Below are positions 47,700 through 52,359 of a stretch of 64,000 nt of DNA, one piece after another. Position 1 is the stretch's first letter. Each line of letters opens with the position of its first letter. The translations under genes and the position numbers were made by a program. Source of the stretch: Aromatoleum toluclasticum ATCC 700605 (GTDB lineage: Bacteria > Pseudomonadota > Gammaproteobacteria > Burkholderiales > Rhodocyclaceae); assembly GCF_000378245.1 (NCBI RefSeq), contig NZ_KB899491.1, positions 434,001-498,000 on the forward strand. The letters are read 5' to 3'. The notes beneath the pieces are model-generated. The model was given only the letters and a program-made list of their open reading frames with translations. It had not been told where the DNA came from and made no database searches.

Positions 47700-48548
<849 letters not shown>

Positions 48549-48575
48549 GTACGGTATTCCTCCATGCGCGTGATT

Positions 48576-48602
48576 TTAGCACTCAACGACTCCGAGTGCT
48601 AA
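48576..48602 (-). promoter_or_regulatory. CIRCE element (HrcA operator) upstream of rpoH
   Basis: TTAGCACTC (48576-48584), a 9-base spacer, and GAGTGCTAA (48594-48602) match the CIRCE consensus TTAGCACTC-N9-GAGTGCTAA at every position. CIRCE is bound by the HrcA repressor and usually precedes groESL, dnaK or hrcA. Here the only downstream gene is rpoH (minus strand). The spacing is right for an operator near the transcription start. Confidence 0.9.
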
Positions 48603-48937
48603 GGGAGGAAAAGAGTTCCTCGCACAATGCTTTCGGCTATGCCTTCCATGTGGAAATTCCGCCCCCTGCTATCCCTTCGGGATTGTCTCGTGGGGTGAAC
48701 CGGTGCCAGGAAAGGGTCTTGCGGGGAAGTCGGTGCAGGTCCGGCAAGTACAGGTGGCTGCACGCCCCCGTGCTTGTTGCACCCATGCAACAACTTTTAT
48801 CCATTTGCAGTGTTCGAGGCGAACGATTCTTGCGCCGCTGCCGGCCGGTTAAGCACAATCGTGGCAACTTCTCGCTTGAGAGGTAAGTCGGGCCGGGGTT
48901 GCGACCGCGGCTTCAGCTTCAATTAGAGGAGAAATAC
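48603..48937. other. divergent promoter region between rpoH and the first porin
   Basis: The 335-bp gap should carry the rpoH and porin promoters. It contains a small hairpin TTGTTGCA (48774-48781) with TGCAACAA (48786-48793), followed by CTTTTAT. A possible porin -35 is TTGCGC at 48830. The porin ribosome site GAGGAG lies just before its ATG. No ORF or RNA gene was recognised. Confidence 0.5.
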
Positions 48938-50116
48938 ATGCAAAAGAAACTGATCGCCCTGGCCATCGCCGGCCTGGCGTCCGCTCCGGTTTTCGCGCAG
49001 ACCAACGTGACCGTCTACGGTGTTGTTGACGTCACGCTCGAGAACGTTCGCGCGAAGGGCGGAGATGCCGAAGATCTCAAGAACCGCAACCGCGTCACCT
49101 CGAACAGCTCGCTGCTCGGCTTCCGCGGCGCCGAAGATCTGGGTAACGGCCTCAAGGCCCTGTTCCAGGTCGAAAGCGGCTTCGCTGCTGACGGGTCGAG
49201 CTCCACCAGTGGCCTGGCCACGCGTGACACCTTCGTCGGCCTGACCGGCGGTTTCGGTACGCTGCAACTGGGCAAGCTGACCACGATCATGCGTACCGCT
49301 GGCGCCAAGGTTGACTTCAACCCGGCCGCAACCGGCATCGGCTTCCAGGCTGCCACCTACGGCACGATCGGCGGCATCAAGACCGGCGTGGATGAGCGCA
49401 TCAACAACTCGGTGATGTACACCACCCCGAGCTTCAGCGGCTTCAACGCCCAGCTGGCTTACACGGCTGGTGAGAACCGCAAGTCGTCGGCACAAAACCT
49501 CGACGGCAAGAGCATCAACGCCCAGGGCTATCAGCTTGCTGGCGCCTACGAGAATGGCCCGCTGTACGTCTCGGCCGGCTACGCGCTGCAGAAGGACCTT
49601 CAGCTCGCTACCGCTGCTGCACTGGCTGCGGACGTCCCCGCCGCTGACCTCGCCGACACCATCGGTGGTTACAGCGACAAGCTGAAGACGGCGCGTATTG
49701 CTGCCAAGTACACGTTCCCGAGCAACACCACCGTGTCGGCTCTGTGGGATCGCAGCAAGTACGAAGTTTCGGCTGTTGATGGCAAGGCTGACGTCAAGCG
49801 TAACGCCTGGCTGGTCGGTGCTGAGCAGAAGTTCGCTGGCAATCAGGCCGCTTACCTGCAGTACTCGCGCTCGCGTGACCTGAAGGGCGACGTTTGCGAC
49901 GTGGTCGAGTGCAATCGCACCGGTTTCTCGCAGTGGACCCTGGGCTACACCTACGCTCTGAGCAAGCGCACGATGGTCAAGGCGTACTACACCCGTCTGA
50001 ACAACGAGCGTGATTCGGGTGCCGACTTCTACCTGAGCAGCATCAGCTCGACCGGTCTGCTCGGCGACGGTCAGGATGCGACCGGCTTCGGTCTCGGCCT
50101 GCGTCACACCTTCTAA
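48938..50116 (+). CDS. outer-membrane porin (Gram-negative porin, OmpC-like)
   Basis: A 392-residue general porin. A signal peptide (KKLIALAIAGLASAPVFA) ends before QTNVTVYGVVDV, the first strand. LLGFRGAEDLGNGLKALFQVESGF and RDTFVGLTGGFGTLQLGK are the hallmark N-terminal motifs of betaproteobacterial trimeric porins. The C-terminal GLGLRHTF ends in Phe, as needed for outer-membrane insertion. Codon use is strongly biased, consistent with high expression. A second porin follows after a terminator. Confidence 0.94.
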   Translation: MQKKLIALAIAGLASAPVFAQTNVTVYGVVDVTLENVRAKGGDAEDLKNRNRVTSNSSLLGFRGAEDLGNGLKALFQVESGFAADGSSSTSGLATRDTFVGLTGGFGTLQLGKLTTIMRTAGAKVDFNPAATGIGFQAATYGTIGGIKTGVDERINNSVMYTTPSFSGFNAQLAYTAGENRKSSAQNLDGKSINAQGYQLAGAYENGPLYVSAGYALQKDLQLATAAALAADVPAADLADTIGGYSDKLKTARIAAKYTFPSNTTVSALWDRSKYEVSAVDGKADVKRNAWLVGAEQKFAGNQAAYLQYSRSRDLKGDVCDVVECNRTGFSQWTLGYTYALSKRTMVKAYYTRLNNERDSGADFYLSSISSTGLLGDGQDATGFGLGLRHTF

Positions 50117-50450: not shown

Positions 50451-51557
50451 ATGCAGAACGTCAAGACGCTGGCCATCGCGCTGGCTGCCATTGGAGTTGC
50501 CGGCGCCGCTCAGGCGCAATCCAACGTGACCATCTACGGTCGTGTGAATACCTCGCTGGAGCAGACCAAGATCGAGGGTGAAGATAGCGTCACCAAGATG
50601 ATCAACAACAGCTCGCGTATCGGTTTCCGCGGCAACGAGGACCTGGGTGGCGGCATGTCTGCCCTGTTCCAGATCGAAAGCGGCTTCAACTCCGATGCCG
50701 GCGGCGGCAATCTCGCGACCCGCGACACTTTCGTCGGCCTGAAGAGCAACCTCGGCACGATCAAGCTCGGCTACATCACCAGCCCGCTGTATTACGCCAC
50801 GCATGACTACCTCGGTATGTCGAACCACGACACCGGCACGTCGTCGGATGCGTTCCTGTGGCTGTCGGCCTACGATCCTGAGAAGTTCTATCTGCGCAAT
50901 TCGATCACCTATGCCAGCCCGACCTTCGGCGGCGGCTTCGTCTTCGAGGCGCAATACTCCGCGCTGAACGAACAGGCTACCGACTCCGTCGCGCTCAATC
51001 GCAGCGCTCGCCCGACGCACTATTCGGCAACCGTGAACTACGACAACGGCCCGCTGCATGTCGGTTTCGGCTACGCCCGCACCAACAAGTTCTACAACTT
51101 CGACGAAGGGAAGAGCAAGGACAGCGCTCTGACCATGGCCGCCGTGTATGACTTCAAGTCGTTTGTGATCGGCGGGTTGTTCGAGCGTAACAAGTCGGAC
51201 AACGGTGGTCTTCAGGACATCTCCGGCCTCACCGGCGACCACCATCGCAACCACTATCGCGTTTCCGCGATGTTGCCCGTCGGTGCGAACGAGTTCCACG
51301 TGAACTACGGCGTCGCGCGCGACTGGAGCAGCACCAACGACACCGGTGCGAAGCAGATCACGCTGGGTTATAACTACAACCTGTCGAAGCGTACCAAGGT
51401 CTATGCGCAGTGGACCAAGATCGACAACGACAAGCAGAAGTCGTCGATCGATAACGGCGATGCATACAACGGCGGTGGCGCATACAGCTTCCTGTCGGGA
51501 ACGGGGCTGGGTCTGGACAACACCTCGTTCGGCGTCGGCCTGCGTCACAACTTCTGA
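50451..51557 (+). CDS. outer-membrane porin (Gram-negative porin, OmpC-like)
   Basis: A second porin of 368 residues, clearly related to the first. The leader (KTLAIALAAIGVAGAAQA) precedes QSNVTIYGRVNTSLEQ. SSRIGFRGNEDLGGGMSALF, RDTFVGLKSNLGTIKLGY and the final GVGLRHNF are shared motifs. The loops differ from the first porin, so selectivity may differ. It has its own candidate promoter and terminator and may be differently regulated. Confidence 0.94.
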   Translation: MQNVKTLAIALAAIGVAGAAQAQSNVTIYGRVNTSLEQTKIEGEDSVTKMINNSSRIGFRGNEDLGGGMSALFQIESGFNSDAGGGNLATRDTFVGLKSNLGTIKLGYITSPLYYATHDYLGMSNHDTGTSSDAFLWLSAYDPEKFYLRNSITYASPTFGGGFVFEAQYSALNEQATDSVALNRSARPTHYSATVNYDNGPLHVGFGYARTNKFYNFDEGKSKDSALTMAAVYDFKSFVIGGLFERNKSDNGGLQDISGLTGDHHRNHYRVSAMLPVGANEFHVNYGVARDWSSTNDTGAKQITLGYNYNLSKRTKVYAQWTKIDNDKQKSSIDNGDAYNGGGAYSFLSGTGLGLDNTSFGVGLRHNF

Positions 51558-51611: not shown

Positions 51612-52159
51612 GTGCGCCCTGCAAGGGCGCACTCCTGCGAGTGCAAGTCCCGCCGTAAGTTGACTACAGTGCAAATGCGTGAGGGAGGGCGAGCGTGGGA
51701 AGGGCGCGTGGAGCGTAAGCTGCGAGCCGATGGTCAAGAACCGGAGAGAAGGCACTGCCGAGCAGGGCAAGCGGGCAAGCAAACGTGAAGCTCTCGTGAT
51801 CAAGGCGAGGTGGTGTGAATCCGGCGGCTGTGCAGCAAAGGAGGTCCCGCAGCCGTATGAGGGGACGCCGCAAGGCGGCCCGCTGTCGCCGTTGCTGGCC
51901 ACGTGCTGCCGGACGAGGTGGATCGGAAGTTGGCGCTGCGCGCCTCGAGACGGATGTCGGCAAGGTCGCCGCGAACTGTCGGTGCTGATGGCGAAACGGC
52001 CGCCTGAGGCTGAACCGGGCGATGCCTGTCGCCTACTTCGACCGGCTTGGCGCACCCCGACTCTCGTGACCTCAACTACTCGAACCGCCCTGCGCGGACC
52101 CGCATGCCGGGTGGTGCGGGAGGGGAGCGGCCAGGTATCCCGACCGCCTCTATCCCGAT
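51612..52159 (+). mobile_element. decayed group II intron
   Basis: The left end GTGCGCCCTGCAAGGGCGC has the GTGCG start of bacterial group II introns. The right part carries a domain V-like segment (GAACCGCCCTGCGCGGACCC from 52082, then GGGTGGTGCGGGAGGGG). It ends TATCCCGAT, as bacterial introns do. Between them lie fragments of the intron reverse transcriptase. At about 550 bp it is far shorter than an intact element (about 2 kb), so most of the ORF has been lost. It lies immediately behind a terminator T-run, the preferred target of class C introns. Confidence 0.75.
51841..52069 (+). pseudogene. group II intron reverse transcriptase/maturase remnant
   Basis: PQPYEGTPQGGPLSPLLA (from 51848) is the reverse-transcriptase block found in group II intron proteins. 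The frame then breaks at about 51901: one base missing relative to LLANVLLDEVD leaves VLPDEVDRKLALR in another frame. A third fragment (AMPVAYFDRLGAPRLS, ending at TGA 52067-52069) resembles the family C-terminus. The YADD block and most of the maturase domain are absent, so no functional protein is made. Confidence 0.75.
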
Positions 52160-52359
52160 TCTATGCACGCGGTCTGCATGCGTGCGGGCCTCGACGCGCA
52201 GCGGCGCTCGAAGCATGTGATAATGAAATCGGCGGAAAAAAACGGTCGGGAGTTTCCGGAGAATTCGACCGGAAGCTCCCGGGAGCGGGCGCGCTGGCGG
52301 CGCGGCCATTCCTCTGACCGGGTAAAGGAGAACAGCGGGTGTAAATCTAGGCGCGCCCG

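Follow-up and report, generated by a model that had tools for sequence, protein, structure and literature searches.

A perfect CIRCE, the operator of the repressor HrcA, precedes rpoH, which encodes the heat-shock sigma factor sigma-32, in Aromatoleum toluclasticum ATCC 700605. It coincides with sequences that look like promoters of this gene, one of the sigma-70 and one of the sigma-E type. Judged from sequence, HrcA very probably represses rpoH here by occluding both predicted promoters. The overlap with the two promoter-like sequences was absent from an earlier note on this DNA and is the more informative feature of the site. The features concerned are given below by their positions in the window, which is the whole 64,000-nt stretch of DNA that was analyzed.

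47700..48548, minus strand: rpoH, sigma-32, 282 aa (TIGR02392, 403.5 bits; sigma-70 regions 1.2, 2 and 4)
48549..48937, no strand: intergenic region between the divergent rpoH and porin genes, in which the rpoH promoters are expected (gene positions)
48558..48563, minus strand: likely ribosome-binding site GGAGGA (sequence)
48573..48581, minus strand: predicted extended -10, TGC-TAAAAT, with TGCTAA taken from the CIRCE right arm (consensus scan; conserved attached -10)
48576..48602, minus strand: perfect CIRCE, predicted HrcA operator, TTAGCACTC-N9-GAGTGCTAA (pattern match)
48591..48595, minus strand: predicted sigma-E -10, TCGGA, running from the left-arm end into the loop, 17 nt after its -35 (sequence; motif of relatives)
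48597..48602, minus strand: predicted sigma-70 -35, TTAGCA, formed by the six bases that open the CIRCE left arm (consensus scan; column profile of 77 loci)
48613..48619, minus strand: predicted sigma-E -35, GGAACTC (sequence; motif conserved in relatives)

The operator TTAGCACTC-GGAGTCGTT-GAGTGCTAA occupies 48602-48576 on the minus strand with 0 mismatches at the 18 defined positions, just as the earlier note had claimed. Its distance to the rpoH ATG, which puts it among the regulatory sequences of a heat-shock gene, is 27 nt and was given there as 28, right within one. The gene was also named correctly as rpoH, scoring above the equivalog cut-off of 323.1 bits. The range proposed at that time, 48548-48602, covers the operator and the leader, but the region of interest probably extends to 48619. 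The porin gene upstream is divergent and starts with its ATG at 48938, so the rpoH promoters should fall within the 389 nt separating both genes. It is the first of two Gram-negative porin genes (Porin_4) in tandem on the plus strand, at 48938-50116 and 50451-51557. Downstream of the second one, a group II intron RNA match (RF02001, 61.8 bits) was found at 51689-51850 on the plus strand; it may be an intron remnant, since the overlapping ORF at 51679-52317 has no Pfam match.

At up to three mismatches, the rpoH CIRCE is the sole match in the window, and 100 dinucleotide shuffles of the window gave a mean of 0.01 with a match in one shuffle. The 5.92-Mb genome contains two CIRCE sites at this threshold, both perfect, located at rpoH and at groES-groEL, and the reversed pattern used as a control in the genome-wide scan had 0 matches. 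The operator arms of the groESL site (L002) are identical to those at rpoH, and the same repressor is expected to recognize them. A single hrcA gene, for which the earlier note had proposed to search, is present (TIGR00331, 336.4 bits; cut-off 197.2). It is preceded by a sigma-70-like TTGGCA-18-TAGAAT. The genome scan found no CIRCE with up to three mismatches near hrcA, and CIRCE-mediated autoregulation of this gene was rejected. One gene exceeds the family cut-off for rpoE (TIGR02939, 352.5 bits) and adjoins an rseA-like gene (RseA_N). The closest named relative among the matches listed is Aromatoleum tolulyticum, with an RpoH 96% identical.

A consensus scan identified TTAGCA-18-TAAAAT as a 9/12 match to a sigma-70 promoter with TG ahead of the -10; one such match in the 1.7 kb scanned does not clearly exceed what shuffles gave (mean 0.3, sd 0.6). 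Conservation was followed in a profile of 77 loci, obtained from the best 80 of 588 confirmed rpoH loci by dropping L037 and L038, which have no CIRCE, and L039, whose CIRCE is preceded by fewer than 60 nt. An attached -10 (TAnnnT) is found at the rpoH CIRCE in 75 of these 77 loci, and also in 16/16 rpoH loci of the class search and 35/38 of the class sample. The right arm GAGTGCTAA continues into NAT in the profile, with A at position 28 in 70/77 and T at position 29 in 75/77. GAGTGCTAA with NAT yields TGCTAANAT, an extended -10, for which the left arm offers TTAGCA or TTGGCA as a -35 at 18 nt. Departures from the CIRCE are asymmetric in the same 77 loci: the third base of the left arm is G in 24, and the mirror base of the right arm is changed in 1. 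The left G would move the sequence towards a better -35, and the mirror change on the right would spoil the -10. Upstream of rpoH in one class-level genome (G291, L181), a second GAGTGCTAAAATT lies just before the CIRCE, which suggests a duplicated operator arm and -10.

RpoE-type promoters have the consensus GGAACTT, about 16 nt, and TCnnA. The boxes in the window, GGAACTC-N17-TCGGA, are imperfect compared to this consensus. A GGAACTT-like motif followed 16 or 17 nt later by TCnnA is present in 53 of the 77 loci and absent in 24, against a mean of 1.56 and a maximum of 6 in shuffles that kept the CIRCE in place because it fixes the TC of the -10. Stricter forms of the -35 gave 30 loci versus 0.31 and 15 versus 0.03. 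Further rpoH loci carry the motif in 12/16 (shuffles 0.53) and 27/38 cases (shuffles 0.92), four of the 16 coming from genomes that recur among the 38 (G313, G316, G332 and G347). Position 11 in the CIRCE loop is A in 36/41 loci with a near -35 versus 9/36 others, a contrast based on the looser -35 and on classes set after the alignment was seen; the stricter -35 tried first gave a weaker one (23/29 versus 22/48, p 0.0045). In several Burkholderiaceae the sigma-E-like motif is located entirely upstream of the CIRCE, its spacing unchanged at 16-17 nt. Some 20-40 nt ahead of the CIRCE, four loci from Janthinobacterium, Rugamonas and Duganella (L052, L063, L071 and L080) have in common a sequence similar to ATAGTaTTTnnnCTAT, and the sigma-E motif is missing from them. 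For Bordetella bronchiseptica, in vitro transcription of the rpoH (fam) promoter region by SigE has been reported (PMC3490749). This species is a betaproteobacterium and SigE an RpoE-type sigma factor, which parallels the sigma-E promoter predicted here; that paper differs from our account in that HrcA and CIRCE have 0 occurrences in its main text.

The groESL operators are arranged differently. Among 11 groESL CIRCE sites, none shows the sigma-E-like motif and one has an attached -10. A strict expression found a sigma-32-like promoter upstream of the groESL CIRCE in 5/11 (shuffles 0.02), this genome included, where it reads CTTGAAA-N14-CCCTA. At rpoH, by contrast, the predicted promoter incorporates the CIRCE.

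A CIRCE with up to three mismatches within 400 nt before rpoH was found in 78 of 80 named related loci (the best 80 of 588 confirmed), and 65 of the 78 have at most one mismatch. The two loci without it belong to Nitrosospira (L037 and L038), and both genomes are hrcA-positive. An exact CIRCE with an ATG 10-40 nt downstream, a pattern that may also pick up groESL sites, occurs in 29/41 genomes of the relatives set and in all 16 other genomes of the genus besides the window's own. In a sample of 229 genomes of the class, the CIRCE pattern TTR...TAR was matched in 154. The class search listed 29 new loci, namely 16 at rpoH, 10 at groESL, 2 at hrcA and 1 unassignable near a contig end. A stricter pattern matched 20/150 genomes at the phylum level; of the 22 loci listed, groESL accounts for 12 and rpoH for 10, and among these 10 are the site of the window itself and another that was counted on both strands. 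One class-level genome (G313) has two rpoH copies (L168 and L170), only one of them with a CIRCE. Another genome (G043) matches the reversed control pattern 18 times on each strand, which probably reflects a repeat family similar to a backwards CIRCE.

The occurrence of the rpoH CIRCE follows hrcA across the sampled genomes. At the order level, hrcA is present in 220/250 genomes. For comparison we used 17 hrcA-negative genomes of 20 listed (30 in all), each at least 98% complete, and 18 hrcA-positive ones chosen from the same families where any existed. The CIRCE precedes rpoH in 18/18 hrcA-positive genomes and in 0/16 hrcA-negative genomes, one of the 17 (G151) having no rpoH at the threshold. 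A genome with a weak HrcA match and no CIRCE (G109) was placed in neither group. A class sample of 56 genomes from different families gave 36/39 hrcA-positive and 2/17 hrcA-negative genomes with the operator (Fisher p 6e-9, which is too small because the loci share descent and p-values overstate their independence). The rule for this sample (G283-G361, completeness at least 95%, one genome per family) was fixed before the hrcA and rpoH searches and after the genome-wide CIRCE counts were known; it gave 61 genomes, of which G299, G320, G354, G357 and G359 had no rpoH at E <=1e-70. None of 570 base-shuffled upstream regions from the class sample had a CIRCE with up to three mismatches. Exceptions are the hrcA-positive G294, G307 and G353 without an rpoH CIRCE, the two Nitrosospira loci mentioned above, and the hrcA-negative G297 and G356 with a CIRCE at one and three mismatches, respectively. 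The G297 genome (L194), in which hrcA was not found, is 97% complete, and its operator may reflect a recent loss, an assembly gap or another reader.

The earlier note had presented rpoH as an exceptional place for a CIRCE. It is instead the usual state in the sampled hrcA-positive genomes, and a perfect CIRCE at -51 from rpoH was predicted in Geobacter sulfurreducens in 2004 (PMC545781, Table 8). The control of rpoH transcription by HrcA that the note proposed is supported by the presence of hrcA and by the co-occurrence; the exceptional status of the rpoH site is the part that falls away. As in our genome, the HrcA and sigma-32 systems would be linked through a perfect rpoH CIRCE in this delta-proteobacterium (PMC545781). 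That account differs in its available part, which describes neither a promoter overlap nor a sigma-E element at the rpoH site (PMC545781).

Lineages without hrcA serve as natural experiments on which bases serve which reader. In two hrcA-negative relatives the dyad is gone and promoter boxes are kept. One of them (G058) retains GGAACTT-N16-TCATA and, read by eye, TGATAAAAT; the CIRCE at the same place has 5 mismatches and the -35 is now ATAGCA, whereas its congener G250 has the CIRCE, sigma-E-like and sigma-70-like elements all intact. The other (G196) keeps TTGGCA-N17-TACTAT with no CIRCE, the best match in the whole stretch having 6 mismatches, and its congener G229 has an rpoH CIRCE at 1 mismatch. 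A third hrcA-negative genome (G139, L104) shows the sigma-E-like motif upstream of an inverted repeat, CAGGCACT-N9-AGTGCCTG, at the place of the CIRCE, which may be a relic that has shifted, a different operator or a terminator. The other 13/16 hrcA-negative rpoH upstream regions gave no clear counterpart. Since matches are scattered among them (sigma-E-like in G173 and G192; sigma-70-like in G077, G113, G189 and G192), single matches mean little. The hrcA-negative G358 keeps the TTGGCACTC left arm and the sigma-E-like motif.

HrcA binding, promoter activity, dependence on GroEL and the dynamics are what we infer from these sequences, and the following scheme would connect them. Without stress, HrcA kept active by GroEL would sit on the 27 bp and block RNA polymerase, both at the sigma-70 promoter, whose -35 and extended -10 would be made from the two CIRCE arms, and at the sigma-E promoter, whose -10 would lie within the CIRCE. 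Upon heat shock, unfolded protein would occupy GroEL, HrcA would become inactive, and rpoH and groESL would be released together. Sigma-32 would then activate groESL via the promoter upstream of the groESL CIRCE, and once GroEL had recovered, HrcA would regain its activity and shut rpoH down once more. This would constitute a feed-forward arrangement, in which HrcA blocks rpoH and groESL and sigma-32 activates groESL. Support of HrcA binding by GroEL is reported for C. jejuni in the available part of PMC8533110 and is assumed for this genome. In Xylella fastidiosa under nitrogen starvation, hrcA was four-fold up at 2 h and rpoH two-fold induced at 8 and 12 h, as given in the part of PMC3224663 at hand. 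This timing would not fit HrcA occlusion simply if Xylella rpoH carries a CIRCE.

It is unlikely, though conceivable, that HrcA acts at rpoH on a real sigma-70 promoter only, the GGAACTT motif being something else or unused here. The imperfect sigma-E boxes of the window and the 24/77 loci (from the best 80 of 588) without the pattern agree with that explanation. It is opposed by the enrichment of the motif in three partly overlapping locus sets, by the loop position 11 contrast in the best-80 loci, by the Burkholderiaceae in which the entire motif sits upstream of the CIRCE at the same spacing, and by the use of the rpoH promoter region by B. bronchiseptica SigE in the available part of PMC3490749. 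Less probable still is that the dyad is mainly a promoter constraint, in which -35 and -10 make up an inverted repeat by coincidence, or that it is a relic at which HrcA is inactive. Promoter-like boxes do overlap both arms, and hrcA-negative genomes include one with the left arm kept (G358) and one with a nearly intact CIRCE (G297). However, those parts of the dyad that the boxes leave uncovered show no or almost no variation across the 77 loci (from the best 80 of 588), and the dyad is present in only 0/16 and 2/17 genomes without hrcA. A chance match has practically no probability and was rejected, given the shuffle mean of 0.01 at up to three mismatches and the sharing of the CIRCE by 78/80 relatives (the best 80 of 588).

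Other roles were considered for the rpoH upstream region. With the starts predicted near 48565 (sigma-70) and 48584 (sigma-E), both transcripts would begin downstream of the left arm, and the CIRCE would then be unlikely to act as an mRNA hairpin. In a comparison aimed at an RNA thermometer, the predicted unpaired fraction of the start region at 30-42 C is 0.43-0.46 in the window and 0.21-0.47 in E. coli, depending on the leader chosen. Autoregulation of rpoH by sigma-32 was rejected, as 0/77 upstream regions (from the best 80 of 588) matched the strict expression, which finds 5/11 groESL regions and could miss weaker sites.

The proposed repression by HrcA through a CIRCE that coincides with the predicted promoters can be compared with the E. 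coli heat-shock response, the model for sigma-32 control. E. coli is without HrcA, and the control genomes in which HrcA was found do not include it. The 244 nt upstream of E. coli K-12 rpoH contain one sigma-E-type site by nearly the same expression with 15-17 nt allowed, TGAACTT-N16-TCTGA, which we take to be the sigma-E promoter P3, and no CIRCE, the best match having 8 mismatches. E. coli has a sigma-E-type site like the one predicted at this rpoH and differs in having no CIRCE. Beta-proteobacterial rpoH sites may already be included in a survey from 2003 that dealt with beta-, gamma- and epsilon-proteobacteria. The operator kind is known, and its place in part; the present study adds that it overlaps two predicted promoters, that it is widespread and that it tends to be missing where hrcA is missing too. 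No description of a fused operator/promoter element at rpoH was found in the literature searched, with most subscription journals outside it, and the available parts of PMC3989490, PMC8762339, PMC3135505 and PMC10696704 have no bearing on a CIRCE at rpoH.

We lean slightly towards a broader reading, in which the 27-bp operator doubles as the sigma-70 core and the sigma-E -10, and HrcA arbitrates housekeeping, envelope-stress and GroEL-sensing inputs to sigma-32. Such a fused node would be ancestral for rpoH in Gammaproteobacteria (in the GTDB sense, including betaproteobacteria), as its distribution across genomes suggests, with the E. coli circuit as the remnant after hrcA loss. The overlap would explain the near-invariant operator, several bases of which are apparently read by HrcA and two sigma factors. 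Should HrcA control of rpoH be general among hrcA-positive relatives, GroEL availability would set sigma-32 synthesis at the level of transcription in many bacteria. The E. coli circuit would then be a special case, and the textbook version of sigma-32 control may be simplified.
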